From a virus, in IMG/VR virus record IMGVR_UViG_3300032326_001081, positions 1-37,734 of that record: DNA of 37,734 nt; one strand, given 5' to 3'. Shown here in pieces: positions 37-37,698 of this stretch (position 1 is its first letter; each line of letters starts with the position of its first letter). Position numbers and translations under genes: made by a program. The notes below the pieces were generated by a model. That model ran no database searches. It worked only from the letters and a program-made list of their open reading frames with translations, and was not told where the DNA came from.

Positions 37-159
37 GCAAGCGATTGACGGGCAACGAGCGGCGAGAATTTGGGGATGTGGTGCGGGCGGCGTGTGACAG
101 GCTTTGTGCCAATCGATTTCGAAATTGCAGGTTTGTTGGAAATGCGGGAGGGTGCGCGC

Positions 160-384
160 ATGGAAGAGTTTGAGAACCCGATGCGGCCACGGAACCCGGT
201 TGGGAAACGAATGGCCAAGGCATTGTTGGCCTGCTTCGTGGCAATACTTGGCGGGTTGGGAGTGGTCTGGGTGTTAGGTCTATGTGGGCTTCCTGGGAAA
301 ATGGTTAGCGCCGCCGTGTCGGTGTTGCCAATGGTCGGAATCGGCGCTGCGGTGATCGCTTGGAAAGAGACTGCGCCAAAGTGA
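160..384 (+). CDS. small two-TM membrane protein
   Basis: A 74-residue protein with two hydrophobic segments, one around residues 20-40 (AKALLACFVAILGGLGVVW) and one around 50-68, and a charged N-terminus. I chose the ATG at 160 because GGGAGG sits 8 bases upstream; an in-frame ATG at 70 lacks such a site. The stop overlaps the next start (TGATG), so the two genes form a pair. They lie between attL and the repressor, outside the lytic modules, where lysogenic-conversion or superinfection-exclusion genes often sit. I recognise no family; a role at the host inner membrane in the lysogen is inference. Confidence 0.55.
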   Translation: MEEFENPMRPRNPVGKRMAKALLACFVAILGGLGVVWVLGLCGLPGKMVSAAVSVLPMVGIGAAVIAWKETAPK

Positions 385-773
385 TGAACAAGCCGCTTTT
401 CATTTTGCTGGCGGTGATGGGTTCAATCGGAGTGGCGGCATCGATTCATTTCGCATTCTGGCCTGTTTGGTGGATTGTGGAACGCGCAAGATCCCGGAAA
501 GTGCGGGCCATCAGCACGCTGTTAGGAGTGTGCGGAATGGCTGGATGGTGTCAGATATTCACGCTGTTTGAGGAGCGAGCATTGCCGCGGAGCTTTGGCT
601 TAAATGTTTGGCTTACTGCTGGTGTTTTAGGGGTGATTTGCGCGGCTGCGCAAAGGGCGGAAACATTGGCTGAGCTTCAAGGCAAGATCGAGTATCGAAG
701 CGGGAAGCCTCAATGGAAGAAGAAGCCGAGATATAGGGAGCCGTTTCAACCTGGAACGGACCGCGGGCAATAA
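384..773 (+). CDS. membrane protein, about three TM segments
   Basis: A 129-residue protein that starts inside the stop codon of the preceding gene (TGATG), which suggests translational coupling. Hydrophobic stretches lie near residues 4-28, 42-62 and 76-94, followed by a basic, hydrophilic tail rich in Lys, Arg and Pro that is probably cytoplasmic. It faces the leftward repressor gene tail to tail, with 45 bases between and no clear terminator. I do not recognise the family. Its place beside attL, away from replication and virion genes, suits a gene expressed in the lysogen, but no promoter is obvious. Confidence 0.55.
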   Translation: MNKPLFILLAVMGSIGVAASIHFAFWPVWWIVERARSRKVRAISTLLGVCGMAGWCQIFTLFEERALPRSFGLNVWLTAGVLGVICAAAQRAETLAELQGKIEYRSGKPQWKKKPRYREPFQPGTDRGQ

Positions 774-818
774 CGGCACGGGTGGAACGGGATTGGAGCC
801 GGTGGGAGGCCCGGCAAA

Positions 819-1190
819 TCACTCTCCCCGGCGCTTGGCGCGGTAGTCGGCTGGATCTTCGGCCACTTTGAGCGTGCGGGGAGTAATCTCCTCGGCCAAG
901 GTGTTGAGCCCTTCAATGGCCCAATCTTCGATCAGCAGGCCAGCGTCCAGGGCGGCTTGATTCCATGCGCGCAACTCCTCGGGCGTCGGGCGGATGATGA
1001 GACCCGACAAGCGGCCGGAAGCGTGTGCATCCCATTCCGCCATGATCTGGCGGAGATGGTCGAATTTTCGAGCCGGAACGCCACTGGACCGCCAGTTGCG
1101 GATGGTTTGCGCCTGAACTCCGAGGCGCGCGGCTACTTCCGCCGCCGTCAGGCCCTTGGCGTCCATCCATTGAATCAATTCGTGGGTCAC
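819..1190 (-). CDS. helix-turn-helix repressor (CI-position)
   Basis: A 123-residue protein. The N-terminus has a clear helix-turn-helix around residues 14-38 (AAEVAARLGVQAQTIRNWR) of the Cro/CI or MerR-like type; the rest is acidic and alpha-helical, with no Ser-Lys LexA-type peptidase domain visible. The only leftward gene of the left arm, it faces a rightward early operon across a region with operator-like inverted repeats, which is the layout of a lysogeny repressor. The start is uncertain: I take GTG at 1190 because it keeps the first helix complete; an internal ATG at 1166 is possible and neither has a convincing Shine-Dalgarno site. Without a peptidase domain, induction may not be by RecA-driven self-cleavage. 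Confidence 0.7.
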   Translation of the reverse strand: MTHELIQWMDAKGLTAAEVAARLGVQAQTIRNWRSSGVPARKFDHLRQIMAEWDAHASGRLSGLIIRPTPEELRAWNQAALDAGLLIEDWAIEGLNTLAEEITPRTLKVAEDPADYRAKRRGE

Positions 1191-1200
1191 GCGGCTTGAG

Positions 1201-1259
1201 TATCCCGAAAAATGATTTCCCGCAAACTTTTTTGTTGCGCCGTGTCCGTTTTCGGGATA
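1201..1259. promoter_or_regulatory. operator-like inverted repeat in the repressor/early intergenic region
   Basis: TATCCCGAAAA at 1201-1211 is matched exactly by its reverse complement TTTTCGGGATA at 1249-1259. A related half-site, ATACCGAAAC, follows at about 1265-1274. These ATnCCGAAA-type sites lie between the leftward repressor (start 1190) and the rightward early operon (start 1287), where lambdoid operators sit. The matching arms are seen directly; binding by the 819-1190 protein is inference. A weak promoter-like TTGTTG lies at about 1232 with GATAGC about 18 bases downstream. Confidence 0.6.
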
Positions 1260-1286
1260 GCTCAATACCGAAACGATACACCAGCG

Positions 1287-1439
1287 ATGACTGCAACTCT
1301 CCAATTCGACCCGGAACTCTACAGCGAAAAGGCGCTCAAGCTGATTCTGGCGACGGCACAACGGGAAGGCTGCACGCCTGCGGAGGCCGTCGTGAAAATC
1401 CTCAACGAGTGGGCCAAGCGGAAAAAGCGCGCGGCCTGA
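1287..1439 (+). CDS. small protein at the cro position
   Basis: A 50-residue protein, first gene of the rightward early operon, directly opposite the repressor. It has an amphipathic helical core (residues 14-45, ALKLILATAQREGCTPAEAV) and a very basic end (KRKKRAA), a size and composition seen in ribbon-helix-helix or Cro-like DNA-binding peptides, although I cannot assign a family. I chose the ATG at 1287; an upstream in-frame ATG at 1212 would translate the operator region and is unlikely. There is no clear Shine-Dalgarno site, so translation could start close to the transcript's 5' end. Confidence 0.5.
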   Translation: MTATLQFDPELYSEKALKLILATAQREGCTPAEAVVKILNEWAKRKKRAA

Positions 1440-1467
1440 ACGAATCACCCGAACCCACACCCCTGCC

Positions 1468-1659
1468 ATGGAAGAGAAAGCGAAACTTGAAACGGCAATC
1501 CTCGAAAGCATCCAAGATCTGGACGCGGCCCGCGCGGCATTGGAATACACGCTGGCCCGGCTCAAGGCCGGCGAGATCACGACGGAACAGGCCACGACGC
1601 TGCGGGCGAATTACTGCCGGTGCCTCGCCCGCATCGCGAAAGAAGGGGGGGCGAGGTGA
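1468..1659 (+). CDS. small helical early protein
   Basis: A 63-residue, almost wholly alpha-helical protein (KLETAILESIQDLDAARAAL) with a coiled-coil-like pattern and a KAGEITTEQA turn in the middle. Its stop overlaps the next start (GTGA at 1656-1659). It contains two cysteines close together (CRCLA). I recognise no family; it is most likely a small regulatory or host-takeover peptide of the early operon. Confidence 0.5.
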   Translation: MEEKAKLETAILESIQDLDAARAALEYTLARLKAGEITTEQATTLRANYCRCLARIAKEGGAR

Positions 1660-4494: not shown

Positions 4495-5346
4495 ATGAAC
4501 GATACAGACAACGCCATGCTGGCGGCATTCAAGGCCGGCGAGAAAGGGAGCGATCCTAAGATCTGCGAGGCGACGGAACAGATTTTCATGCGCGAGGGTT
4601 TTCGGGCCATCGATGTAAGCAAGGAGCTGCTTCGCGTCCGCAAGGCGGATGAACCCGGACCGACGAACGCGGCCGGAACGATGCAATGCCTGACGCCGGA
4701 GTCATTTGTGGCGGCGGTGAAAGACCACCACGATGTCCGCTCTGCGATCTTCGCGGATTCGGAAAACGGCGTGGTGGTCTGCGTCTTCGACTACCTCGAA
4801 CGCGGCGGCGCGCCGACGCATGGCGAGGATGAGCGGGATAAGGGCTGGGGCCAGCATCGCGCGGAAATCCGTTTTGAGCGGTCGCGCAAGCTCAAGGAGT
4901 GGCTCAAGCTGACTGAGGCTGTTTCGCAACTGTCCTTTGCCGAGTTTATCGAAGACCATCTGGACGATGTTGTGGACCCGAAAGGGGACGATCTGCTGGC
5001 GCTGGCAACGGATCTCGAGGCATCGTCGACCGGCTCATTCAAGGGCAAGGTGAACCTCGCCAACGGGAGCACCCAGCTTGCATTCTCGCACGACACGGAA
5101 ACGACCGTGGAAGTGCCCAAGGAAATCGCCCTGGGCATCCCGCTTTTCGAGCACCATGCGGGCTATCGGCTGCGCGCCCGGCTGCGCTGGCGGCATGCCC
5201 AAGGCACGCTGTCGTTCCGCCTGCTGTTCCCGACGCTGCAGGATGCGCTGGAACAAGAATTCGAACGCATCGTGCAGGAAATGGAAGCAGGCACCGGGCT
5301 TCCGTTCTACCGCGGGCGGCTGGCGCTGCCGTGGGATGCATCCTGA
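4495..5346 (+). CDS. DUF2303-like phage protein
   Basis: A 283-residue protein with the order of conserved features I associate with DUF2303, a family of phage and prophage early proteins: an early catalytic-looking SFVAAVKDHHDVRSAIF, a histidine-rich HRAEIRFERSRKLKEWLKL, then LSFAEFIEDHLDDVVDP, and the C-terminal half with IPLFEHHAGYRLRARLRWR and a closing FYRGRLALPW. The family is found near recombination and exonuclease genes in temperate phages, and here it lies before a DnaQ-like exonuclease. The biochemical function of the family is not established. A terminator-like hairpin follows. Confidence 0.75.
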   Translation: MNDTDNAMLAAFKAGEKGSDPKICEATEQIFMREGFRAIDVSKELLRVRKADEPGPTNAAGTMQCLTPESFVAAVKDHHDVRSAIFADSENGVVVCVFDYLERGGAPTHGEDERDKGWGQHRAEIRFERSRKLKEWLKLTEAVSQLSFAEFIEDHLDDVVDPKGDDLLALATDLEASSTGSFKGKVNLANGSTQLAFSHDTETTVEVPKEIALGIPLFEHHAGYRLRARLRWRHAQGTLSFRLLFPTLQDALEQEFERIVQEMEAGTGLPFYRGRLALPWDAS

Positions 5347-5374
5347 GCGATTGACGGGAATACCCGATTGACCC

Positions 5375-5406
5375 ACCCGCCGAGTCCGCAAGGGCCGGCG
5401 GGTTTT
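5375..5406 (+). terminator. terminator-like hairpin after the DUF2303-like gene
   Basis: ACCCGCCG (5375-5382) pairs with CGGCGGGT (5396-5403) around a 13-base loop and is followed by a short TTTT. The T-run is brief, so it is probably a partial terminator or attenuator inside the early operon. Confidence 0.5.
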
Positions 5407-5424
5407 GGGGTGAAGGCATGAAAC

Positions 5425-5643
5425 ATGAAGGAGACCATGGAACAATTGGCGCTGGCAACATACAGGCTAGCGGAGGGGCAAGCGGCAATCCGGAGGAACG
5501 AATGCCCGGCGAGGCATTTGCAAGCGGCGGCGGCAATTCTGGCGAAGGAGCATGCGCGACTGAAAGCGATCGAGGAGGCGAAGCCGAAGCCGAAGCCGGA
5601 CTGGCGACGGCTGGCGCTGCCCTCGGGTGGACGGATATCATGA
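5425..5643 (+). CDS. small helical protein upstream of exonuclease
   Basis: A 72-residue protein rich in alanine and charged residues, probably helical (LQAAAAILAKEHARLKAIEE) with a KPKPKP linker. I start it at ATG 5425, which has GAAGG 8 bases upstream; the ATG at 5437 has its purine run too close. The stop overlaps the exonuclease start (ATGA at 5640-5643). The function is unknown. Confidence 0.5.
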   Translation: MKETMEQLALATYRLAEGQAAIRRNECPARHLQAAAAILAKEHARLKAIEEAKPKPKPDWRRLALPSGGRIS

Positions 5644-6146
5644 TTGATCTGGAAACGCTGAGCACGTCCCCGGCGGCGGCGATCATTTCGGCGGCGGCGG
5701 TGCCGTTTCTCCTGCATGAAGGGCTGACCGGCGGCGGCGGTCATTGGCTGCTGGATGGCAATGACGGCGAGCGCGACGACGAGACGCTGGCATGGGCGGA
5801 GAAAAACGGGACTTGGCCGCACGCGGAAGGCGCGGCGCTTATCTCGGAAAAGGCGCTGCTGCTGGTGCTGCGTGAAGTGGTCTGCAAGTGGGGAGGTGAG
5901 TGGGCTCCGACGATCTGGATATGGGGCGCGGATTTCGACTCTCCCATTTTGAAGTCTGCGGCGGTGCGGCAAAATATGAGGATGCCGTGGCAATACTGGC
6001 ACGTGTCTTGCGCGCGCACGGCGTGGAAGCTCGCATTTGGCAACCAGCCCCGTCCGAAGCGCGATCATAACCCGCTCCGCGACTGTTACGCCGCGATCCA
6101 GGACCTGCGTTTGGCGGTGCAAAAGCTGGGAGGGCTGCGCGCATGA
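5640..6146 (+). CDS. DnaQ-like 3'-5' exonuclease (Rv2179c-like)
   Basis: A 168-residue protein opening with MIDLETLSTSPAAAIISAA, the ExoI DxE motif (D3, E5) of DEDD exonucleases in the form used by phage and Rv2179c-like exonucleases. The second acidic motif is in WGADFDSPILKSA and a late H/D motif is in DHNPLRDCYAAI. The length fits a stand-alone exonuclease domain. I start at the ATG in the ATGA overlap because the catalytic DxE must be N-terminal. It probably degrades single-stranded DNA or RNA ends during phage replication or recombination. Confidence 0.85.
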   Translation: MIDLETLSTSPAAAIISAAAVPFLLHEGLTGGGGHWLLDGNDGERDDETLAWAEKNGTWPHAEGAALISEKALLLVLREVVCKWGGEWAPTIWIWGADFDSPILKSAAVRQNMRMPWQYWHVSCARTAWKLAFGNQPRPKRDHNPLRDCYAAIQDLRLAVQKLGGLRA

Positions 6147-6703: not shown

Positions 6704-7681
6704 ATGAGCGTTCAATGCACAACGGCGGCGTGGTTTGGTAGCGAGGCCAAAGGCGGGCGAAAGCTGGTCTTGCTGGCAATCGCGGACTGCGCCAACGATG
6801 AGGGCTGGGCGTGGCCCTCCCAGGCCACGCTGGCGGCAAAATGCGGGCTCGATGCGGAGCGTGGAATCCGGGAGCACGTGCGCGCGCTGGTCGAGCTGGG
6901 CGAGCTGGAGGAATACCCCCGGCCCGGCCGGACAACTCGCTACCTGGTGCGGCTGGATGTTTTAAAAAATCGAGCCGATGAACGCCAGAAACCCCGGAAG
7001 GATTCTGCCGGGGTGCAGAATTCTGCGGGGGTGAAGGATTCTTCCCATCCCCACCCCGGAAGGATTCTGCCGGACACCCCGGAAGGATTCTGCCGGACAC
7101 CCCGGAAGGATTCTGCCTACGATCCCAAAGGAACGGTAAAGGAACCCAAAGAGGGAGAACGCGCGGGCGCGGCGGGAAATCCCCCCTCCCCGGATTTTTC
7201 GGGTGGGCTGCCGGATCTCGAGCGGCAGGTTTGCGAGCTGTTTCCGCATGCCCTGCCGGTGCTCACGGATCGGGAACGGGTCGCGCTGCTCGGGGTGCAG
7301 TCGCTGCTGGCGCTGCTGACGGCGGACGATTGGCTGGCGCTGCGCGTTTGGTTCGTCGAGGCGGACGACGCGGCCCGGCGGCAAAAGCTCTGGCCCAGGG
7401 ACCGTGCGGAGTTTCTGGACCGTGCCGGCGAGGCGATCGAGAAGGCGCGGAAATGGTGGGATCTGCGGGGCCGGAGGTGGTGGGCGTATCGGTCGGGCGA
7501 GGTCGGGGCGGTGGAGGCTTACCGGGCTGGCGACGGGCTGGCGTGGCAGGATTTCCAGGATTTCGCAACGGAAACCGGCAAGGACCCGGGCGAGGTGGGC
7601 GACGCCTTCCGGGATGGGCGGTGGGCGCGCGAGTTCGTGGCCTGGGCGATGGGATCGAGCGAGGAAGGGGGGAACGCATGA
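6704..7681 (+). CDS. O-like replication initiator with N-terminal winged helix
   Basis: A 325-residue protein. Residues about 18-85 form an HTH_36-type winged helix: KLVLLAIADCANDEGWAWPS, then QATLAAKCGLDAERGIREHV and RALVELGELEEY, the standard opening of phage O-type and helix-turn-helix replication proteins. Residues 95-160 are a proline/basic linker encoded by repeated DNA (see 6991-7117). The C-terminal part is helical and tryptophan-rich, probably contacting helicase or loader, although no helicase gene is visible in the phage. The design matches lambda O, which binds iterons lying inside its own gene. It is joined by ATGA to a second winged-helix gene. Confidence 0.75.
   Translation: MSVQCTTAAWFGSEAKGGRKLVLLAIADCANDEGWAWPSQATLAAKCGLDAERGIREHVRALVELGELEEYPRPGRTTRYLVRLDVLKNRADERQKPRKDSAGVQNSAGVKDSSHPHPGRILPDTPEGFCRTPRKDSAYDPKGTVKEPKEGERAGAAGNPPSPDFSGGLPDLERQVCELFPHALPVLTDRERVALLGVQSLLALLTADDWLALRVWFVEADDAARRQKLWPRDRAEFLDRAGEAIEKARKWWDLRGRRWWAYRSGEVGAVEAYRAGDGLAWQDFQDFATETGKDPGEVGDAFRDGRWAREFVAWAMGSSEEGGNA
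6991..7117. repeat. ori: iteron-like repeats inside the replication gene (candidate origin)
   Basis: The motif ACCCCGGAAGGATTCTGCC occurs at 6991, 7053, 7076 and 7099. The last three copies are spaced exactly 23 bases apart, with two degenerate copies between (AATTCTGCG at 7019, GATTCTTCC at 7037). A perfect palindrome GCAGAATTCTGC lies at 7015-7026, and a TTTTAAAAAAT run lies just upstream at about 6960-6970. Because 23 is not a multiple of three, the copies are read in different frames, so the DNA rather than the protein is what is conserved. Iterons within an initiator gene are known from lambda O. Confidence 0.65.
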
Positions 7682-7962
7682 CCGCCGCGGATCTGCTGGA
7701 GCTGGCCTTGAGGGAAAAGCGCAAGGCTGCGCTGTCCGACACTCAGGCGCAAATCCTCCTGCACCTGGCGCGCGCCGGAGAACCCTGCCGACTGCATGCG
7801 CTGTCGGATGCGCTGTGTGTGACGAGGCAAAGCATTTATGAGGCGTTGGACGGCATGGACGAAGCGGTGAGCGTGGAACGGTCGCCGGGGAAAATGAAAG
7901 TGGCGCTGAAAGCGGAGGGCGTGCGGATGCTCATGCTGTTGCTGGGAGGGAGGAAACCATGA
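7678..7962 (+). CDS. small winged-helix DNA-binding protein
   Basis: A 94-residue protein with one winged-helix domain: LSDTQAQILLHLARAG, then LHALSDALCVTRQSIYEALD (helix-turn-helix) and a wing with VSVERSPGKMKVAL. The layout is MarR/ArsR-like but minimal. It is coupled by ATGA to the initiator before it and to the small terminase after it. It may regulate the switch from replication to packaging; this is inference from position. Confidence 0.6.
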   Translation: MTAADLLELALREKRKAALSDTQAQILLHLARAGEPCRLHALSDALCVTRQSIYEALDGMDEAVSVERSPGKMKVALKAEGVRMLMLLLGGRKP

Positions 7963-8441
7963 AGAAGCAGGCGAAAAAGAAGACAGCGCGCAAGGCGGCA
8001 AAGCGTGGGCGTGGTCGGCCGACTCCGTATCTTCCGGAGTATGCGGAACAGGCCGGGAAGCTCTGCAAACTGGGTGCCACCGACGAGGAATTGGCCGATT
8101 TCTTTGGCGTCGATGTTCGCACGATCGGCCGATGGAAAAACGCGCACGCTGAATTTTGTCAGGCCCTAAAAGATGGGAAGACTTTGGCGGACGCGACGGT
8201 GGCGGAGCGGCTTTTTTCCCGGGCCTGCGGCTATTCGTGCCAAGAGACGAAGTTTGCAACCTTCGAAGGCATGATCACGGATCAGAAGGAGGTCACGAAA
8301 CATTACCCCCCCGACACGACGGCGGCGATTTTCTGGTTGAAGAACCGCCAGAAAGACAAATGGCGCGACAAGGTCGACCACGAACACGGTTTCACCGGGG
8401 ACGTGCATGTGGTTCTTGGTGCCAACGCGGAGGATGCCTGA
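7959..8441 (+). CDS. terS: terminase small subunit (TerS-like)
   Basis: A 160-residue protein with a lysine-rich N-terminus, then a helix-turn-helix (LGATDEELADFFGVDVRTIG, RWKNAHAEFCQAL) followed by GKTLADATVAERLFSRACGY and the ending YPPDTTAAIFWLKNRQKDKW. That order is typical of podovirus and siphovirus TerS proteins, which recognise the packaging site and stimulate the large subunit. The large subunit is expected next to it but here lies 3.9 kb downstream, separated by accessory genes. Confidence 0.85.
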   Translation: MKKQAKKKTARKAAKRGRGRPTPYLPEYAEQAGKLCKLGATDEELADFFGVDVRTIGRWKNAHAEFCQALKDGKTLADATVAERLFSRACGYSCQETKFATFEGMITDQKEVTKHYPPDTTAAIFWLKNRQKDKWRDKVDHEHGFTGDVHVVLGANAEDA

Positions 8442-8755
8442 TGATGAGACCGGAGAGAGGAAACGAACCAATGAAGAAAGACACAAAAAAGCGGCCATCG
8501 GGGGGCATGTTTGCGCAGCTAGTTCGGGGCCTTGTGCACGCCTGGCAGGATTACCAACTTGGACGGTTGATCCGAAAACATGAAATCTCAGTGATGCGGA
8601 TCGAGTCGGGACTTGTCGGCGGCGCGGAATGGTCATCGTGCGATCAGCGGATGAGCGAGGATTTTGGACACGGGGGCAAGTGGGGATCCGGGGAAACGGC
8701 ACGCGATGCCGCGAAATCTATTTTAAACGCTAATATCCACCCACCCCGACCATGA
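8441..8755 (+). CDS. hypothetical protein, first gene of the accessory insert
   Basis: A 104-residue protein. I take the ATG at 8441, which overlaps the terS stop and has GGAGG 7 bases upstream; ATG 8471, with GAGAGG 10 bases upstream, is nearly as good and gives 94 residues. A lysine-rich start leads to an amphipathic helix (FAQLVRGLVHAWQDYQLGRL), then a polar C-terminus. Its stop overlaps the next start (ATGA at 8752-8755). The family is unknown. Base composition from here to about 10430 is less GC-rich than the genes around it, suggesting separate origin. Confidence 0.45.
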   Translation: MMRPERGNEPMKKDTKKRPSGGMFAQLVRGLVHAWQDYQLGRLIRKHEISVMRIESGLVGGAEWSSCDQRMSEDFGHGGKWGSGETARDAAKSILNANIHPPRP

Positions 8756-9084
8756 TCCCAAGACGCCTATCCGCCCTGTCATCCACCCTTGCCGCTGCCG
8801 CCTTATGCAGTGGCGGCAAGGGGTTGGCTCCAGTGCTATTGTTCGGCACTCGGCATTGGTCCGTCACTGTGGCAGTCGAAGGAATGGATGTCGTAACCAT
8901 CGAATCCAACTGTCTGAGCGGACTCGAAAACGTGACCGACTACCGCCCCGAGATCATCGAAGCCGCCGAGCACCTGCTGGCATTCATTGGCACTGGTGAC
9001 GATCCAGACTTCGACTTTGAGGATATGCCGAACGCCGATGTGGAGGCACCGCCGCGCAGGACTCCGAACCAAGAACAAGGCTGA
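8752..9084 (+). CDS. hypothetical accessory protein with possible signal segment
   Basis: A 110-residue protein with a signal-peptide-like start (basic MIPRR, then LSALSSTLAAAALCSGG), so it may be exported or membrane-anchored; an AALC-S lipobox-like site is present but not canonical. The rest is acidic, with RPEIIEAAEHLLAFIGTGDD then a run of Asp and Phe (DPDFDFEDM). No family recognised. It is joined by ATGA to the preceding gene and followed by a long perfect inverted repeat. Confidence 0.45.
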   Translation: MIPRRLSALSSTLAAAALCSGGKGLAPVLLFGTRHWSVTVAVEGMDVVTIESNCLSGLENVTDYRPEIIEAAEHLLAFIGTGDDPDFDFEDMPNADVEAPPRRTPNQEQG

Positions 9085-9112
9085 TCGGCGGTTGCCTCTC
9101 ACTCCTTGTTCT
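9071..9112. repeat. 9-bp perfect inverted repeat between accessory genes
   Basis: AGAACAAGG (9071-9079) is matched by CCTTGTTCT (9104-9112) around a 24-base loop that spans the stop of the 8752-9084 gene. No T-run follows, so it is not a standard terminator. It does not carry the GTTRRRY/RYYYAAC boxes expected of an integron attC site. Confidence 0.5.
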
Positions 9113-9129
9113 GCCTCTTACGAATTACC

Positions 9130-9438
9130 ATGAAAGCAACAATACTCGATACAGTGACCGGCGAAAAGATGACGGTCGATGGTCCCCGCTCTTGGGAGTG
9201 GGCTGTAAACAACTGGTCATGCGACTGCAACCGAAACCCTTGGGATGTGGACACGGGAAAGCCCGAGAACGTCTGTGAGGGCTGCGAACGCTTCTTGGTG
9301 GTCGAAGCGGTGATGGATGATCCCGACGACTACGAATACACGCTGGACGAGCTAAACGAGGGATACCCCGCAGAACTCCGCGCCAGTTTTCTTGGGCAGA
9401 ACGAAAAAGTGGTGGCAGCCCCACCCAAACCAGAATAA
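9130..9438 (+). CDS. small accessory protein with CxC...CxxC motif
   Basis: A 102-residue acidic protein. A cysteine cluster WSCDCNRNPW ... VCEGCERF (residues about 33-60) resembles a zinc ribbon or small zinc-binding knuckle; around it the sequence is rich in Asp and Tyr (MDDPDDYEYTLDELNEGY). I start at ATG 9130; an upstream in-frame ATG at 9106 would overlap the inverted repeat. I recognise no family. The gene stands alone, not overlapped by its neighbours, unlike most genes here. Confidence 0.5.
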   Translation: MKATILDTVTGEKMTVDGPRSWEWAVNNWSCDCNRNPWDVDTGKPENVCEGCERFLVVEAVMDDPDDYEYTLDELNEGYPAELRASFLGQNEKVVAAPPKPE

Positions 9439-9442
9439 ATCT

Positions 9443-9799
9443 ATGACAACAAAACTAGACTCAGAACTACCAGAAACGCCCGCCGAAGAGAAAGACTTGG
9501 TGGGGATTGCCACGCACGCATTGTTCGACGAGAGCAAGGTGGAGCTTGATCCAAATGCGGTCAAACCGGGGATGCACGTATCAATACTCAAGTGGAAATC
9601 CCATTACGACCGATCATGGGTTGGGGATGTGCTCCATGTGGTCAACGTCAATCCTCCATTCATCATCACTAATCGCCGACGGACACACGATACCTCTCGC
9701 CTGGTGATTGACGTGCGGGACGTGTCCTTGGTGCTACTGCGGGAAGACTTCGTGGCTGACTGCAACGTGTCGCCGTCAACTCTTCCGTCGAACTCATAA
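9443..9799 (+). CDS. hypothetical accessory protein
   Basis: A 118-residue protein starting 4 bases after the preceding stop. The N-terminal third is acidic and disordered-looking (SELPETPAEEKDLVGIATHA); from about residue 42 it becomes a beta-rich domain (GMHVSILKWKSHYDRSWVGD, then VIDVRDVSLVLLREDF) resembling small SH3-like barrels. No family recognised. Last rightward gene before a convergent leftward gene, with a terminator between that serves the leftward one. Confidence 0.5.
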   Translation: MTTKLDSELPETPAEEKDLVGIATHALFDESKVELDPNAVKPGMHVSILKWKSHYDRSWVGDVLHVVNVNPPFIITNRRRTHDTSRLVIDVRDVSLVLLREDFVADCNVSPSTLPSNS

Positions 9800-9848
9800 G
9801 CGATGGCTCCCCACCCGACACCGATGCTGACCACTGGACAGACCCACG

Positions 9849-9886
9849 AAAAACCCCACCGCGCCGATAGACGGCGGGGTGGGGTT
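9849..9886 (-). terminator. rho-independent terminator for the leftward gene
   Basis: AACCCCACC (9852-9860) and CGCC (9862-9865) pair with GGCG (9873-9876) and GGTGGGGTT (9878-9886), with one G-G mismatch and a 7-base loop. Read on the minus strand, the stem is followed by TTTTT (complement of 9849-9853), so it terminates transcription of the 9914-10216 gene. On the plus strand there is no T-run. Confidence 0.85.
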
Positions 9887-9913
9887 GCAATCCGCGACTT
9901 GTTCAGCTGGGTG

Positions 9914-10216
9914 TTAGGGCTGTGTCACTCTCCACGAAATTACCTTGCGGGCGTCGTTAATGTCCCGGTCATTCACTTCCACGATAGCGCCGAATCGGCG
10001 GAACTTCTGGGCCGTTGCGGCATCGAAAACGAGACCTGTCTCGGGATGAGCTTCGGTGGTGGTGTAGCGGTCGGAATTACCGCGCATTTTCAGGAGCATT
10101 TCGCTCAGGGTCATCTTCGGGCGTCCACCCTTAGCACCGTTTGTGCGGGACGCTTCGGAGCGGATGGTGGATGGGATCGAGCGGAGGGCTTGGGCGGCTT
10201 TGTTTTTGGTGGTCAT
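9914..10216 (-). CDS. leftward accessory gene, small basic protein
   Basis: A 100-residue protein, the only leftward gene between the repressor and the integrase. The N-terminus is basic with a glycine-rich SEASRTNGAKGGRPK patch like those of antitoxins and small DNA-binding proteins; the rest has a TTTEAHPETGLVFDAATAQK turn-rich region and an acidic C-terminal part. It has its own terminator downstream (9849-9886), and an intergenic region with two perfect inverted repeats upstream (10263-10311), so it is an independent transcription unit that could be expressed in the lysogen. The family is unknown; an antitoxin-like or immunity role is speculation. Confidence 0.55.
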   Translation of the reverse strand: MTTKNKAAQALRSIPSTIRSEASRTNGAKGGRPKMTLSEMLLKMRGNSDRYTTTEAHPETGLVFDAATAQKFRRFGAIVEVNDRDINDARKVISWRVTQP

Positions 10217-10262
10217 AGTATTCGGTGTTTGATCGGGGCTTCATCGCCTGCCGATGGGAAGA

Positions 10263-10311
10263 CAATAACCCCACGTCGGGTTATTGCAATGAAAATCTCA
10301 AATTATTTTCA
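10263..10311. promoter_or_regulatory. two perfect inverted repeats upstream of the leftward gene
   Basis: CAATAACCC (10263-10271) pairs with GGGTTATTG (10278-10286), and TGAAAAT (10290-10296) pairs with ATTTTCA (10305-10311). They lie in an AT-rich gap (10217-10432) between the leftward gene and the rightward methyltransferase, where divergent promoters are expected. Neither is followed by a T-run, so operators are more likely than terminators. The rest of the 216-base gap shows nothing else I can name. Confidence 0.5.
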
Positions 10312-10432
10312 CGGCCCGAAATCAGGGTCTTTTTCTCTGCTGAACGCCGAAGCTGTGGCGCATGGCGTCACTGCGGAGCCAAGCCCAGCCGAAGAAAAGC
10401 CTTAGCCATGTCGTCCACCAGCGTCTTGTTCC

Positions 10433-11329
10433 ATGCCCATCATCCAACCATCATCTCTTCATGAGCTGGCACTGTTCGCAGGCGCTGGTGGCGGAATACT
10501 CGGCGGGCTCCTCTGTGGATTCCGAACCGTGTGCGCCGTCGAGATCAACGAATACGCCAGGCGCTGCCTCATGGCCCGCCAAGACGACGGCAGCCTGGAA
10601 CCCTTTCCGGTCTGGGACGACATCTGCACCTTCGATGGAAAGCCATGGCGTGGACTGGTGGATGTCGTCACTGGCGGATTCCCGTGCCAAGACATCAGCG
10701 CCGCGGGCCGCGGGGCCGGGATCGACGGCGCCCGCTCCGGCCTGTGGGGCGAAATGGCAAGGATCATTGGCGAGGTGGGACCGCGATACGTGCTTGTGGA
10801 GAACTCCCCAAACCTCACTTCTCGCGGACTTGGACGTGTTCTCGGAGACCTGGCCTCGATGGGGTATGATGCGCGGTGGGGAGTGCTCGGCGCTGTCCAT
10901 GCCGGCGGGCCTCACAAGCGTGAACGAATCTGGATTCTGGCAAACGCCAGTGGCGGACGATGCGGTGGACCGCAAGGCGGGGAAATGGAACTCGCGGGGC
11001 GAGCCGAAACTGTCCGCCCAGGTGAAGCTCTGGCCGACTCCAACGGCCGTCACCAACACGGGTGGCGCCGCGCTGTGCAAGTGGGGAGGAAGTGGAGCGC
11101 GGGCGAAGCTGCGGACAATGGTGAGCGATGCGGAACTGAATGGTGCCCTGAACCCAACGTGGGTCGAGTGGCTCATGGGGTGGCCGCTCGGGTGGACCGA
11201 CTTACGGCCATTGGAAACGGCCAAGTGCCGCGAGTGGTGGCACTGGCATGGAGCATTTTACAAGCTGATGAAACCGCTGATGAAACGCCGGTAGGTCCGG
11301 CATGGAACAGTATTACTCAAGAACCCTAA
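10433..11329 (+). CDS. DNA C5-cytosine methyltransferase
   Basis: A 298-residue protein with the ordered motifs of C5-cytosine methyltransferases: motif I LFAGAGG (14-20), motif IV GGFPCQDIS with catalytic Cys85, motif VI ENS (123-125, usually ENV), motif VIII KRERIWILA (162-170) and motif X GNGQVPRVVALAW (261-273). The target-recognition part is short (about 171-240), as in phage enzymes. It transfers a methyl group from SAM to cytosine, most likely to protect phage DNA from host restriction; no matching restriction enzyme is in the window. No clear Shine-Dalgarno site precedes the ATG. The whole gene is overlapped by a long ORF in another frame (10461-11294). Confidence 0.9.
   Translation: MPIIQPSSLHELALFAGAGGGILGGLLCGFRTVCAVEINEYARRCLMARQDDGSLEPFPVWDDICTFDGKPWRGLVDVVTGGFPCQDISAAGRGAGIDGARSGLWGEMARIIGEVGPRYVLVENSPNLTSRGLGRVLGDLASMGYDARWGVLGAVHAGGPHKRERIWILANASGGRCGGPQGGEMELAGRAETVRPGEALADSNGRHQHGWRRAVQVGRKWSAGEAADNGERCGTEWCPEPNVGRVAHGVAARVDRLTAIGNGQVPRVVALAWSILQADETADETPVGPAWNSITQEP
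10461..11294 (+). CDS. overlapping ORF in a second frame of the methyltransferase gene
   Basis: A 277-residue frame (first suitable ATG at 10461; open upstream to 10362) that runs inside the methyltransferase gene. It is not a typical shadow: it reads SLARWDRDTCLWRTPQ, then FSETWPRWGMMRGGEC, WPTPTA and LNPTWVEWLMGWPLGWTDL, which I recall as conserved strings of a phage protein family often annotated as hypothetical or as part of cytosine methyltransferases. The same bases, read in the 10433 frame, give the methyltransferase's own conserved end. Either both frames are used, or one family arose from the other by an old frameshift. Whether this frame is translated is unknown. Confidence 0.4.
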   Translation: MSWHCSQALVAEYSAGSSVDSEPCAPSRSTNTPGAASWPAKTTAAWNPFRSGTTSAPSMESHGVDWWMSSLADSRAKTSAPRAAGPGSTAPAPACGAKWQGSLARWDRDTCLWRTPQTSLLADLDVFSETWPRWGMMRGGECSALSMPAGLTSVNESGFWQTPVADDAVDRKAGKWNSRGEPKLSAQVKLWPTPTAVTNTGGAALCKWGGSGARAKLRTMVSDAELNGALNPTWVEWLMGWPLGWTDLRPLETAKCREWWHWHGAFYKLMKPLMKRR

Positions 11330-11372: not shown

Positions 11373-12389
11373 ATGAAAACGAACAAGATAAAAGAATTCA
11401 TCGATGAGATGAAACGGCGGAGGCTGGAGGCAGGGACGGTAGATGCTTACGCATCGCACGCGCGGGCGTTTGGGCGCTTCTGCAAGGGGAGGAGTTTCGA
11501 AACGCCCGGGCATGCGGTGGCGGGGTTTCTTTCGACATTCGCGAGCGAGAAGCTTTCGGCGTCATCGCAAAAGCAGGCGCTGAATGCTCTGGCGGGCAAG
11601 AACGGATTTTATGCCTGCTTTGGGGTGATGCTCGGCAGGCTGCCTGCGTGGGTTCGCCCGCCGGAATCGACATGGGTTCCGGAATGGCTGACGGCGGCTG
11701 AGGTCGAGGCCGTAGCGGTCCACCTGTCGGAAGATTGGGCGTTGATCGCGCGGCTGATGTTTGGGGCAGGGCTCCGCATCCATGAGGCGGTTTCGCTGCG
11801 GTGGAGGGATTTGGATTTCGAACGGATGACCATCACGGTGAAGCAGTCGAAAGGGCGAAAAGATCGCGTCACGTTCCTACCGCGAAGCCTGATTCCCGAA
11901 CTCCAACAACGGCAAACGAGGATCCGCGCGATATGGGAAAGGGATCGGAAGCGGAAACGGCCCGGGGTCGAGGTGCCGCCAGCCCTGGCGAACAAATCGC
12001 CCAAGATCGGCGAGACATTCGGGATGTTTTGGGTGTTTCCGGCGGCGGGGGAAAGTATCGATCCGGAAACGAAAATCCGCAGGCGTCACCATCTGCACAA
12101 GGGGAGCGCCAACCGGGCGGTGAGGGTGGCGGCAACGGCCGCGAAGCTGACGAAGCGGCCGACCGCGCACGCTTTCCGCCATGGCTTTGCCACGGCGTAT
12201 CTGATGGCAGGGGGGCTGCTGCCGGAGCTGCGCGATTTGCTGGGTCACGAATGCATCACCACCACGGAACGATATCTGCACTGCCTGCCGTCGTTTGTGG
12301 ATCGGGTGGGCTCGCCGCTCGATCACGTGGCCGCGGTGGTGCCATTCCGGCGAGACGGGGAAATGCGGGCGGATTCACGGGCTGGATGA
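11373..12389 (+). CDS. integron-integrase (IntI)-like tyrosine recombinase
   Basis: A 338-residue tyrosine recombinase, nearly the length of IntI1. The catalytic set is complete: R135 in GLRIHE, K163, H266-x-x-R269, H292 in LLGHE and Y301 in TTERYLH. Three stretches follow IntI rather than phage or Xer recombinases: LTAAEV...LMFGAGLRIHEAVSLRWRDLDF, then the extra IntI segment PGVEVPPAL...FWVFPA...DPETKIRRRHH (about 197-240), and the ending RVGSPLDHV. It is separate from the prophage integrase at the right end. It sits between the methyltransferase and terL and overlaps terL by ATGA, so it is co-translated with a packaging gene. I find no attI or attC site by eye. It may mobilise the adjacent small genes. 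Confidence 0.85.
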   Translation: MKTNKIKEFIDEMKRRRLEAGTVDAYASHARAFGRFCKGRSFETPGHAVAGFLSTFASEKLSASSQKQALNALAGKNGFYACFGVMLGRLPAWVRPPESTWVPEWLTAAEVEAVAVHLSEDWALIARLMFGAGLRIHEAVSLRWRDLDFERMTITVKQSKGRKDRVTFLPRSLIPELQQRQTRIRAIWERDRKRKRPGVEVPPALANKSPKIGETFGMFWVFPAAGESIDPETKIRRRHHLHKGSANRAVRVAATAAKLTKRPTAHAFRHGFATAYLMAGGLLPELRDLLGHECITTTERYLHCLPSFVDRVGSPLDHVAAVVPFRRDGEMRADSRAG

Positions 12390-13729
12390 AAAAACCGCAA
12401 GTCACGGTCGAGGTCCGCCCGCGTCGGGCGTTCCGGGAATACATGGAGCACGGCCAGCGGTTTGCTTGCCTGGTGGCGCATCGTCGCGCGGGGAAAACTT
12501 ATGGCGCGATTCAGCGTCTGCTGATGCGTGCGCTTTCGACCGTGCGCGGAGGAGCCGCGCCGCCACGATTCGGCTACTTGGCACCGACTCGGGATCAGGC
12601 AAAAGATATTGCATGGAACTACCTAAAAACCTTCACAAAACCAATCCCCGGGGTGCTGGTAAACGAAGCGGATTTGCGGATTACCCTCCCGAAAAAACAG
12701 ACCATTCGGCTTTACTCCGGCGAGAATTACGAGCGGATGCGGGGCCTGTATTTCGACGGCGTGTTGATCGACGAACCGGCGGATATTGACCCGAAAGCCT
12801 GGTCCACGGTCGTGCGTCCGTGCCTTTCGGACTATCAGGGATGGGCGGATTTCATTGGGACGCCGAAAGGAAAGAATGCTTTCTACAAGCGGCACCTGCA
12901 CGCGCGAGACCATCCGGACGAATGGTTTTCGTTGCTGCTGAAAGCTTCGGCGTCGGGCATTCTGCCGGAGCATGAAATCCGGTCGCTGCGCTTCGACATG
13001 TCGGAAGACGAATTCAACCAAGAGTATGAATGCGACTTCAACGTGGGCAGGCCCGGGGCGATCTACGCGGCCGATTGGGCGGCGGCGGTGAAGGCCGGGC
13101 GAGTGCTGCCGTTCCCGGTGGACCGGGCGGTGCCGGTGTGGACCACGTGGGACCTGGGCAGTCCGGCCAATACGGTGGTTTGCTACTGGCAGCGGGTGGG
13201 GTTCACGCATCGCCTGATCGATGTCGATCATCACCTTGTGACGGCGAGCGGGCACCCGATGAAAACGGGCGAGCGGGTGGCGCATATGCTCGGCAAGGGG
13301 TATGCGCTGGGCGGGCACCTGCTGCCGCATGATTCGCGGGCGGAGGGTTACGACGCCATGAGCGTGCGCGCGAGGCTGGAAGAAGCCGGACTGCGCAACG
13401 TCCAGGTGATCCCGCGCGGCGGGACAAACGCGGAGGAAAAACGGGTGCAAGTCATGCTGGATCTGTTCCCGTCCCTCTGGTTCAACGAGGAGAATCTAAA
13501 CGACGAAGGCGGATTTGCGGAAGCGATCGAGAACTACCATCGGAAGGAAAGCCGGAAGGATGGCTGGATTTCCAATGTGATCGAACACGATTGGACGAGT
13601 CACTTTGCCGATGCATTCGGGTATTACGGCGAGGGGTTGAAGCAGGGGATGATTCCTGCCGGGCCTGACTCGGCAATGCCTGGCGTGAAAACCCGGAAAA
13701 CATCCATTCGCAACTCCCCGTCCCGATGA
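12386..13729 (+). CDS. terL: terminase large subunit
   Basis: A 447-residue protein. ATPase domain: Walker A HRRAGKT (32-38), an adenine/arm motif GYLAPTRDQAK (63-73), Walker B VLIDE (126-130) and a coupling motif after it (FIGTPKG). Nuclease domain: TWDLGSPANT with D256, LPHDSRAEG, and the C-terminal HFADAFGY acidic motif. It cuts and pumps phage DNA into the prohead through the portal. The start overlaps the IntI-like stop (ATGA); this start keeps the N-terminus at a normal length before Walker A. TerS lies 3.9 kb upstream instead of adjacent. Confidence 0.92.
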   Translation: MKKPQVTVEVRPRRAFREYMEHGQRFACLVAHRRAGKTYGAIQRLLMRALSTVRGGAAPPRFGYLAPTRDQAKDIAWNYLKTFTKPIPGVLVNEADLRITLPKKQTIRLYSGENYERMRGLYFDGVLIDEPADIDPKAWSTVVRPCLSDYQGWADFIGTPKGKNAFYKRHLHARDHPDEWFSLLLKASASGILPEHEIRSLRFDMSEDEFNQEYECDFNVGRPGAIYAADWAAAVKAGRVLPFPVDRAVPVWTTWDLGSPANTVVCYWQRVGFTHRLIDVDHHLVTASGHPMKTGERVAHMLGKGYALGGHLLPHDSRAEGYDAMSVRARLEEAGLRNVQVIPRGGTNAEEKRVQVMLDLFPSLWFNEENLNDEGGFAEAIENYHRKESRKDGWISNVIEHDWTSHFADAFGYYGEGLKQGMIPAGPDSAMPGVKTRKTSIRNSPSR

Positions 13730-14235
13730 ATCCGGCAACGGCAGCTTGGCACGCATGGCACGATCCGGACGAACCGCCTGGCATGCGCTGGGAAACCATG
13801 TTGCGGCTGCACCTGTTTTGCCCGTGGGCGTGGGTGATTTCGACGCCGACCGTTTTTGCCTGCGCGCGATACGTGGGAGCAGACTGGAGCACGCCTGAGC
13901 GCATCAACCCGTTTCGAGTGACCGATGGGCCAACGGAGGAAATCCATCTGTCGATTGCGGCCGGGGACATGCGCGGCATGTGGGCGCTGCTTCCCCCCGG
14001 CGTGCGGTGGGTGTCGTGGCAGCGGCGAGGGTATCGGCTGCATCGGTGGCCGGTGGCGCGGCTGTCGCGGGTCGGTTTCCCTACCTTTCCGCCAGCGTGC
14101 CGGGTGGCATGGTGCCGGTATGGGCAAGGGCAAATCTTCTCCCCCGCCGGACATTCCGCCGCCGGTGACGACGACGGGAATCGAGGCCGGGCAACGCGCG
14201 GTCCTGAATCGTCGCCGCCGTCGTGGCCGCTATGA
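13726..14235 (+). CDS. podovirus protein next to terL, unknown function
   Basis: A 169-residue protein, coupled by ATGA to terL. The first 115 residues are tryptophan- and proline-rich (LFCPWAWVISTPTVFACARY, then LLPPGVRWVSWQRRGY) and resemble small proteins found between terminase and portal genes in other podoviruses, to my recollection. The last 50 residues are low-complexity and overlap the next gene in another frame, so they may be a random extension. The role is unknown; packaging or head assembly by position. Confidence 0.6.
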   Translation: MNPATAAWHAWHDPDEPPGMRWETMLRLHLFCPWAWVISTPTVFACARYVGADWSTPERINPFRVTDGPTEEIHLSIAAGDMRGMWALLPPGVRWVSWQRRGYRLHRWPVARLSRVGFPTFPPACRVAWCRYGQGQIFSPAGHSAAGDDDGNRGRATRGPESSPPSWPL

Positions 14236-14293
14236 TTCGCAAGACACGCTGCTGACCACCCGCGGCATGCAGAACATGGACCCGCAAGGATGA
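14120..14293 (+). CDS. short conserved-type protein before the portal
   Basis: A 57-residue basic protein that begins MGKGKSSPPPDIPPP and ends with an arginine-rich stretch and DSQDTLLTTRG. Short proteins with a Gly/Pro-rich start, an Arg-rich middle and a TLLT-type ending occur beside portal genes in podoviruses. It overlaps the end of the preceding ORF by 116 bases in another frame, and its stop overlaps the portal start (ATGA), which supports it. It may be a minor head-assembly component. Confidence 0.55.
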   Translation: MGKGKSSPPPDIPPPVTTTGIEAGQRAVLNRRRRRGRYDSQDTLLTTRGMQNMDPQG

Positions 14294-15942
14294 GCGTTGC
14301 TGAAAACATCCTCCGGCGCTGGTCGGAACTCGAAACCGCAATGTCACCTTGGCTGGCGTGGTGGCAACAGCTTGCCGATCACGTTTGCCCGCGCAAGGCG
14401 GAGATCACGGAACGCTCCGGCGATAGTCCGAACCGTGACAAGGTGGCGAAACTCTTCGACACCACGGCGATGGATGCGAATCAGGTTCTTGCCGCTGGGC
14501 AAATGGCCAATATCACCCCGATGGGCCAGCAATGGTTCAACATCGAACCGCCGGAGCGGCTGGCGAAAAACTACGCGGTCCGGCTGTGGTTTCAGGATGC
14601 ATCCCAACGGCTTGGGCGGGCTCTGATCCGGTCGAATTTTTATTCCGCGATGGATGAACTGTATCTGGACCGTGGGGGGTTCGGCACGGCCGCGGTGATC
14701 TGCCGGATGACGCCGGACAAGCGGTTGGTTTTCGAGACGCTGACGATTGGAGGATACGGGATTGGCGAGAACGACGAGCGGATGGTGGACACTCTGCACC
14801 GTCGTTACCGGCTCACCCCGCGCCAACTGGCGCAACGGTTCCGCGAACTGCCGGCGGATTTGAAAGCGCGCGCGGCGGACCCTCAGAAAGCCAATATCCC
14901 AGCGGATATCCTGCACGCGATCGAACCGCGCGAGGATCGAGACCCGTCCCGCGGGGATGAGGCGCGGCATATGCCGGTCCGGTCCGTGTTCATTCATCTG
15001 GAATCCAAGGAGGTGATTCACGAAGCGGGGTTCTTCGAATCTCCCTTTGCCTGCACCCGCTGGCGATTGTGGGGGGAATCGCCCTGGGGCTGGTCACCGG
15101 CCTGGTATGCGCTGCCGACTGCCGATCAGCTCAATTTCCTCGAACAATGCACGGACGTGCAGGTGGAGCGCGCGGCGTTTCCGGCCTGGCTGATTCCGTC
15201 CACGATGAAGGGCGAATTTGATCCGCGTCCGCATGGTCAATCCATCTACGACCCGCGAGGATCGGCGGCGGATGTGGCATTGCCCCGCGAGCTGGAAAGC
15301 CGCGGCCGCGTGGATTACGCCATGGAGCGCGCGGAGCAGAAGCGGAAGATGATTCGCGATGCGTTTTTCTATGACATGTTCCGGCTGCTTTCGAGTCGGG
15401 ACAAGCAACTAACCGCGCGCGAAGTGGTCGAGCTGTCATCGGAAAAGGCGAGCCAATTCCACCCGTTTTTTGCGCGTCTCACCACGGAGCTTTTGCAACC
15501 GCTCCTCAAGCGTGCCTTCGCGGAGGCGCTGCGCGGTGGGCTCTTCGAAAAGCCCCCGCTGGCACTTTTCGAGAAAGGGCCGTCTGGCTGGGTCATGGAT
15601 GATCCGGAAATCGCTTTCACGTCGAGGCTGGCGCAAGCGTTGGACATGCAGGAAACCAACGGACTCCTGCGGACCTTCGAGACGCTGGCACCGATGGCGC
15701 AACTGGATCCCGGGGTTTTCGATTTCATCGATTCGAGCAAAGTCGGCCCGGCCATCGCCCGGTCTCTTGGCGTGTCGGCATCGATCATGCTGGCGGAAGA
15801 GGATATTGAGGCCAAGAAGCAGGCGCGCGCGCAAGCGGCGCAAGCGGCGGCGGCGATGGAATCGGCGCAAATGGCCAGCCAAGCGGTGCGGAATGTCGGC
15901 GGAGTCGAGAAAGCCCGTGAGATCATGGGCGGCATGCCATGA
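14290..15942 (+). CDS. portal (head-tail connector) protein
   Basis: A 550-residue protein matching the T7 gp8/BPP-1-type connector family (Head-tail_con): WSELETAMSPWLAWWQQLAD at the start, then DTTAMDANQVLAAGQMANIT and an N-terminal QQWFNIEPPE, which is the usual 'W-F' strand, a central GGFGTAAVICR, and a C-terminal alanine/glutamine-rich helix. Twelve copies would form the ring at the capsid vertex through which TerL pumps DNA and to which the short tail attaches. This connector type, rather than an HK97 portal, is the best single evidence that the phage is a podovirus. Confidence 0.92.
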   Translation: MSVAENILRRWSELETAMSPWLAWWQQLADHVCPRKAEITERSGDSPNRDKVAKLFDTTAMDANQVLAAGQMANITPMGQQWFNIEPPERLAKNYAVRLWFQDASQRLGRALIRSNFYSAMDELYLDRGGFGTAAVICRMTPDKRLVFETLTIGGYGIGENDERMVDTLHRRYRLTPRQLAQRFRELPADLKARAADPQKANIPADILHAIEPREDRDPSRGDEARHMPVRSVFIHLESKEVIHEAGFFESPFACTRWRLWGESPWGWSPAWYALPTADQLNFLEQCTDVQVERAAFPAWLIPSTMKGEFDPRPHGQSIYDPRGSAADVALPRELESRGRVDYAMERAEQKRKMIRDAFFYDMFRLLSSRDKQLTAREVVELSSEKASQFHPFFARLTTELLQPLLKRAFAEALRGGLFEKPPLALFEKGPSGWVMDDPEIAFTSRLAQALDMQETNGLLRTFETLAPMAQLDPGVFDFIDSSKVGPAIARSLGVSASIMLAEEDIEAKKQARAQAAQAAAAMESAQMASQAVRNVGGVEKAREIMGGMP

Positions 15943-36131: not shown

Positions 36132-36428
36132 ATGGCCACCGCGAAACAATCCTCCCTCAACACGGTGCTGCTGGTGCTGTCGATCCTCGGCGGTGCCGTG
36201 ACTGTGATCAAGTTCGTGGCTCCGCTGTCCACGATGCCGGCGGAACTCGAGAACGTGCAGAGCGACGTGCGCGACATGGCGCATGTCCAGGCCGTGCAGA
36301 CTGAGGCCCTGAAAACGCTGGCGGAGGTTGCCACGGATTCGAAACAGCTCCGGCGCGATGTCGATCGGCACGAAGGCGAGCTGCAGGGCGTCAAGGAACG
36401 GCTTGGCCGACTGGAGAAAGTGCCGTGA
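36132..36428 (+). CDS. holin-like membrane protein with coiled coil
   Basis: A 98-residue protein: an N-terminal membrane segment (TVLLVLSILGGAVTVIKFVA, about residues 10-30), then a long coiled coil (MPAELENVQSDVRDMAHVQA) to the end. It starts 2 bases after the endolysin stop. Proteins of this shape and position serve as holins or spanin-like lysis accessories; DUF2730/XhlA-like phage proteins look similar. It overlaps the end of the convergent integrase gene by 38 bases, and there is no terminator between. Confidence 0.6.
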   Translation: MATAKQSSLNTVLLVLSILGGAVTVIKFVAPLSTMPAELENVQSDVRDMAHVQAVQTEALKTLAEVATDSKQLRRDVDRHEGELQGVKERLGRLEKVP

Positions 36429-37617: not shown

Positions 37618-37631
37618 TGTGACAACTCCCA

Positions 37632-37653
37632 AAGACTCCGCAAGACTCAAGAC
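37632..37653. repeat. AAGACTC direct repeats upstream of int (candidate arm sites)
   Basis: AAGACTC occurs at 37632-37638 and 37642-37648, followed by AAGAC at 37649-37653, about 45 bases from the att repeat and just upstream of the int start. Short direct repeats at this spot are typical of integrase arm-binding sites. The same motif was not seen beside attL. Confidence 0.35.
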
Positions 37654-37698
37654 GAGGGAAACCAAGGAATCCAAGCCCCGCCGGGCCGTGGTCACTTC

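Follow-up and report, generated by a model that had tools for sequence, protein, structure and literature searches.

What does a phage that has an integrase of its own do with a second tyrosine recombinase, encoded between the two subunits of its terminase? Integrons are bacterial gene-capture devices, best known for antibiotic resistance, and the recombinase in question had been described in an original prediction as resembling their integrase, IntI. The gene lies in IMG/VR virus record IMGVR_UViG_3300032326_001081, analyzed here over its full 37,734 bases (the window).

The recombinase gene and its place in the packaging operon

The genes that frame the locus, with the profile matches on which the names rest, are

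7959-8441, plus strand: terS, terminase small subunit (phrog_309, E 8e-54), the left border of the insertion
11373-12389, plus strand: integron integrase IntI, 338 aa (TIGR02249, 2a3v, trees, catalytic residues and fold model)
12386-13729, plus strand: terL, terminase large subunit (phrog_2, E 1e-37), in ATGA overlap with the integrase gene (int)
14290-15942, plus strand: portal / head-tail connector (PF12236, E 2e-103)
36391-37695, minus strand: second tyrosine recombinase, an ordinary phage integrase (phrog_1, E 8e-42; only 34 bits with the integron model)

The start of terL at 12386 lies inside the int reading frame, so that the predicted ATGA overlap is real, as is the predicted presence of a separate phage integrase. 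In the closest TerL relatives, L006 and L007 (TerL 67% identical), terS and terL are only 68 bp apart and the integron is absent, establishing the 3.9-kb array and int as a lineage-specific insertion; the content of the interval, whose comparison among relatives had been suggested, is thus not invariant. The block of small genes before int does have the distinct base composition noticed earlier, with a G+C content of 0.583 for 8442-11301 and 0.556 for 8725-10338, as compared with 0.626 for the rest of the window. A search of viral contigs with the portal protein found no relatives.

The best curated NCBIfam model for the predicted product is that of the integron integrases, TIGR02249, with 234.7 bits over positions 3-314; the curated cut-off of 265 is missed, and the Xer models trail by more than 100 bits (XerC 88.3 bits, XerD 77.7 bits). 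Among solved structures the nearest by sequence is 2a3v, a complex of Vibrio IntI4 with attC (E 1e-34), in an alignment that spans the internal segment with RRHH, so that the protein satisfies the definition of the IntI family by its specific segment even with a score under the TIGR02249 cut-off. The catalytic set, which had been recognized as complete, comprises R135, K160, H266, R269, H292 and Y301, all invariant in an alignment of nine clade members. An AlphaFold model of the protein is of modest quality (pLDDT 74.5, with residues 304-338 low), and its best fold match is again 2a3v (E 1e-19), versus 1.6e-12 for XerA.

In a tree of 166 rows the window integrase falls among 48 viral rows (local support 98), within the diversity of IntI and apart from Xer. 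A second tree (IQ-TREE, 82 rows) places the clade on one side of a branch with SH-aLRT 92, and the 24 rows around the window with 97. XerC and XerD form the outgroup in both trees and the window integrase clusters neither with Xer nor with phage integrases; clustering with either, or absence of the IntI-specific segment, would have refuted the IntI assignment. The predicted product is thereby confirmed as an integron-type IntI and as neither a Xer protein nor a phage integrase of the ordinary kind. Only viruses make up the clade in these trees, for which genome sequences were limited to the best 80 of at least 500 matches. Its members may nonetheless occur in bins or as prophages, since a 3.7-kb contig of a Verrucomicrobiota bin carries a clade integrase at 48% identity; the contig is too short for a host to be assigned to the window phage. 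L004 (Virus Rctr41k, from a methane-oxidising enrichment) has an IntI-like gene at 4680-5678 that is annotated xerD and lies near Chloroflexota IntI, with a single attC-like site downstream at 8415-8545.

The position of a tyrosine recombinase inside a packaging operon invites the thought that an IntI-like enzyme has been retasked, a possibility raised already in the original prediction; it might serve as a lysogeny integrase or as a resolvase of concatemers, and any attC-like hairpins nearby would be incidental. Another integrase may be missing from some relatives. The window, however, has its own phage-type integrase at 36391-37695, and IntI is neither the sole nor the terminal integrase of phrog_1 type that a lysogeny function would lead one to expect.

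In several phages the next gene of the operon comes immediately after int; it encodes TerL in the window, a TerL-like protein in L038 (again with a 4-base overlap) and a primase-like protein in L032. In the L038-L072 group the gene after int (662-679 aa) is called TerL-like on the strength of Walker A and B motifs and one weak phrog_2 match; because neither a PDB search nor a comparison of profiles with the window TerL gave anything, the label remains tentative. The gene after int in L037 (1210-2172) and L195 (396-1466) encodes an AAA ATPase that may be of MuB type, in which case some clade members may be transposable phages. L036 encodes an 894-aa TerL with a Hint domain (12844-15528), probably a terminase intein.

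attC sites, attI and cassettes

No attC or attI site had been found by eye in the window, and a strict pattern scan (RYYYAAC...GTTRRRY plus an L-box helix) gave none there even when relaxed. The scan was blind to the sites because their core is GTTC; the GTTRRRY core, which is typical and not absolute, is not what this array uses. Rfam likewise has no family that matches the window, L086 or L104. An initial search with the core pattern of bacterial sites did identify canonical arrays next to a number of viral and chromosomal IntI genes; the matches lay upstream of int and on the opposite strand in 29 of 34 viral and in 37 of 43 chromosomal cases. From 43 of the attC sites so found we built a covariance model (R1), run on the window with filters off, and from 150 viral sites, with the window sequence excluded, a further one (R2). 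The sites in the window, each with its top strand on the minus strand, are

8722-8847, minus strand: candidate fifth attC (X), degenerate, with a good R''-L'' arm (8818-8847) and a poor 3' arm
9027-9114, minus strand: attC A (R1 35.9 bits; R2 48.3 bits, E 1e-10), with a bottom-strand hairpin; R'' GCAGAAC equals the core at 9396
9396-9529, minus strand: attC B (R1 25.0, R2 40.7 bits); R'' GTCGAAC equals the core at 9787
9787-9907, minus strand: attC C, the weakest of the four (R1 15.2 bits; R2 27.5 bits, E 2.7e-5); R'' GCTGAAC equals the core at 10339
10339-10434, minus strand: attC D (R1 20.0 bits; R2 38.6 bits, E 3e-8); R'' ATGGAAC equals the attI core at 11302

The four best R1 matches in the window are attC A-D, all on the minus strand and all inside the block, so that the covariance-model search proposed with the original prediction returned four sites over 9027-10434. 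With R2 the next best match anywhere in the window reaches 14.9 bits, versus 27.5-48.3 for the four sites, and 249 kb of TerL-related phage contigs, serving as a control, gave maxima of 14.7 bits (R1) and 11.9 bits (R2). Single-strand folding of the four sites produces an attC-like hairpin in three. The features that an attC array demands, paired R and L boxes, a spacer and extrahelical bases on the R''-L'' arm, are all present; the orientation rests on these extrahelical bases, following the definition in PMC2727003. Site X was missed by the covariance models. Its R'' box, GCCGAAC (8841-8847), is identical to the core at 9027, and it bears, at 8837, the fifth copy of a motif, NNTTGTTCNNN; of the six plus-strand copies in the window, five lie within the block. 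The earlier statement that neither attC nor attI is present must therefore be withdrawn, four attC sites and attI being found; with GTTC cores, and lying partly inside reading frames, the attC sites are hard to spot by eye. A strong GC-rich terminator-like hairpin (9850-9890) lies within attC C, just past the end of the possibly opposite-strand reading frame of cassette C.

attI and the reading frames of the cassettes are located as follows.

11302-11318, minus strand: attI, core ATGGAAC followed by AGTATTACTC (clade consensus [GT]AACAGTGATTATC)
8752-9084, plus strand: cassette X, 110 aa, no family; stop inside attC A
9130-9438, plus strand: cassette A, 102 aa, function unknown; stop inside attC B
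9443-9799, plus strand: cassette B, 118 aa, function unknown; start inside attC B, stop inside attC C
9914-10216, minus strand: cassette C, 100 aa, canonical polarity, overlapped by a 200-aa frame at 9803-10405 (plus strand); which one is real is not settled
10433-11329, plus strand: cassette D, C5-cytosine DNA methyltransferase (PF00145, E 3e-29)

Every cassette of an integron has an R'' box whose pairing partner is the core at its opposite end. All four window cassettes obey this rule with 7/7 identical bases (background 4-mer identity 0.010), the last of them ending at the attI core (11302-11308). R'' and R' differ in each of the attC sites, so that the match follows the cassette and not the site. 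Over 101 viral cassettes the match is complete in 79%, versus 9% within one attC and 5% in random pairs; for chromosomes the value is 93%. The boundaries delimit at least four cassettes with one attC each, 9027-9395, 9396-9786, 9787-10338 and 10339-11301, and a partial fifth (X) also fits, its R'' being equal to the core at 9027. Reading frames of cassettes frequently start and stop inside attC, and for three of the four window cassettes no function is known. The sequence [GT]AACAGTGATTATC, or a near variant, is found 50-90 nt before int in nearly all clade members; the assignment of attI beside int rests on this conserved motif, on the R'' match of cassette D and on use of the junction in relatives, with no experimental data.

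Small, unrelated genes of lower G+C might also have come in by illegitimate recombination, as an ordinary block of morons that happens to sit beside an unrelated recombinase. That account is effectively refuted by the attC sites between successive genes and by the exact core matches, and five of the six R'' motifs found on that strand in the whole window fall in the block. Nor can the hairpins readily be called incidental, as a retasked enzyme would require, for model score, polarity, spacing and R''-core identity all mark them as attC, and they are sites of recombination in relatives; retasking is very improbable and, given attC, attI and the exchange described below, unneeded. Judged by its boundaries, then, the block before int is a genuine cassette array. 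We are confident that the interval from terS to terL is a phage-borne integron, with IntI, an attC array, attI and at least four exchangeable cassettes, the weak points being a TIGR02249 score below cut-off, the ambiguous strand of cassette C and the weakness of attC C.

Cassette exchange, cargo and reading direction in the clade

Every one of the 40 clade contigs that extend 700 nt or more 5' of int has attC matches, and related phages whose DNA is 93-100% identical differ by whole cassettes, the junctions falling precisely at AAC cores. L058 and L060 agree base for base over 1,701 positions that end in ..GGCGAAC, whereupon L060 resumes as L058 does after the next core; it is without one cassette of about 306 bp that L058 has, the junction being exactly at AAC. 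In L058, L059 and L060 different cassettes lead to the same attI (..AAC|AAGAATTATCC). At attI, L046 carries an insertion of about 1.8 kb of further cassettes, on both sides of which it is identical to L044, and L047 and L043 share a 1-kb stretch of cassettes at 100% that breaks at cores, with integrase genes of 81% nucleotide identity. An assembly artefact can be ruled out, since the breaks fall exactly on the 7-nt cores in independent samples. These junctions document site-specific gain, loss and transfer of cassettes in phage populations, so that the clade recombines in nature. That a phage collects cassettes is thus supported beyond the caution with which it had been proposed: attC, attI and cassette boundaries are in the window and relatives exchange at exact cores, which together with the perfect R''-core matches makes the cassettes discrete units. 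The turnover is documented for clade relatives and not for the window phage, for which there was no near-identical relative among the sequences compared.

In phages of the L048/L063 group cassette clusters seem to be present at more than one location, with second and third groups of attC far from int, at 57-1650 (plus strand) and 13582-14100 (minus strand), on the other strand and downstream. In L104 nearly the same protein of 77-93 aa (MKPNKTTKLASSRIPRQVRRVVRRLRW...) is encoded in two cassettes (7577-7858 and 9728-9961), a cassette duplication.

The same observations bear on whether a host integron was captured by accident and is carried, inactive, as a fossil or passenger. Host-chromosome integrons caught in phages have been documented (PMC9892861), and the degenerate attC of the terminal cassette X speaks in favor of this reading. 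Yet the integrase belongs to a virus-only clade and its catalytic residues are intact, the R''-core matches are perfect and clade members exchange cassettes, so that we consider mere carriage unlikely, if less so than retasking.

Pfam families could be assigned to a minority of 108 cassette reading frames: N6/N4 methyltransferases (5), C5 methyltransferases (4), Acb2/Tad1 (2), RNA ligase (2), and Dam, Mom, Lar and HNH. In the same contigs, 99 genes outside the cassettes yielded 34 families, of which 25 were listed; no methyltransferase or anti-defence family is among those 25. Acb2/Tad1-like cassettes are found in L047 (6798-7178) and L032 (9601-9903), in the latter, the nearest relative of the window, in the attI-proximal place, and homologues of the window methyltransferase (55-59% identical) adjoin attC in L045, L074 and L099. 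Clade cassettes are thus enriched for counter-defence-like genes, a role that we infer from family names.

Reading frames between attC sites run with int in 43 cases and against it in 4 in the clade, as compared with 6 and 42 in chromosomes (p 8e-16). The counts use a longest-frame rule, by which 21 clade intervals, window cassette A among them, are ties. Cassette frames typically, if not absolutely, point away from attI; in the window cassette C alone may do so. Cores are GTTC in 66 of 108 clade sites, versus 9 of 105 chromosomal sites, where GTTA or GTTG prevails (Fisher p 1e-16). Other viral integrons outside the main phage clade (L086/L090, 6808-9748; L102, L099 and L081) also have frames running with int, 12:2, so that the inverted polarity arose more than once or cassettes were shared.

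A proposed mechanism and its relation to known systems

What is established here at the level of sequence is the homology to IntI, the attC array, attI, the boundaries of the cassettes and their turnover or transfer in related phages; recombination by the window enzyme itself, including attC x attI, is inferred. We propose that IntI would recombine the folded bottom strand of attC with attI (11302-11318), just 5' of int, presumably acting on bottom strands that fold during replication. Cassettes would enter at attI beside int and could afterwards be excised or reordered. Since most cassette frames run with int, they may be expressed as part of the phage operon (terS - cassettes - int - terL) and not from a cassette promoter at attI, for which we have neither promoter nor expression data, and selection would then retain cassettes oriented in the direction of the operon. 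Such a platform would let a phage lineage swap small accessory genes, notably those putatively directed against host defence, with the packaging genes undisturbed. The wider proposal, which we favor with distinctly more reserve than the presence of an integron, is that a virus-only integron lineage, present in several types of metagenomic phage, acts as a bank from which counter-defence genes are exchanged, with reading frames inverted for expression from the phage operon and cassettes traded between different phages.

If there is such a dedicated lineage, viruses use the same device as bacteria, apparently shuffling genes that counter restriction and other forms of defence. New counter-defence genes could then be sought in any reading frame between phage attC sites, genes would have a new route linking phages with the integrons of bacteria, and IntI would include a clade that prefers a different core site.

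Phage integrons as such are already known. Qi et al. 2023 (PMC9892861) described integrons and attC clusters (CALINs) in phage genomes, including DNA methyltransferase cassettes, and phage attC sites proved functional with IntI1. Their four integrase-bearing cases are near host integrons (Vibrio IntIA, class 1, Shewanella IntI) or without cassettes, the lytic phages had attC clusters without integrase, and the Vibrio and Shewanella prophage integrons were proposed to be captured passenger cargo. In the open-licence papers available to us, preprints not included, we found no description of an IntI lineage confined to viruses that has an attI of its own, an altered core, inverted polarity and a place in a packaging operon, and both lineage and layout look new. 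IntI, attC, cassettes and methyltransferase cassettes in phages are thus common to that study and to the present clade, which differs in its virus-only IntI, its own attI motif, mostly GTTC cores, inverted reading frames and terminase-adjacent place. With the sedentary chromosomal integrons (controls L120, L134, L129 and L137) the clade shares the internal segment of IntI, attI 5' of int, the attC top strand opposite int and R''-core matching, whereas chromosomal frames run away from int (42:6, versus 43:4 with int in the phages) and cores are GTTA/GTTG in place of GTTC. XerC and XerD have the tyrosine recombinase fold and catalytic residues in common with the window enzyme but are the outgroup, with lower model scores and without the IntI-specific segment. 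The reverse-orientation integrons of Spirochaetota (PMC9668308) likewise depart from the usual relation between the directions of int and cassettes; there it is the integrase gene that is described as reversed, whereas in the phage clade int, attI and attC are canonical and the reading frames within the cassettes are turned around.
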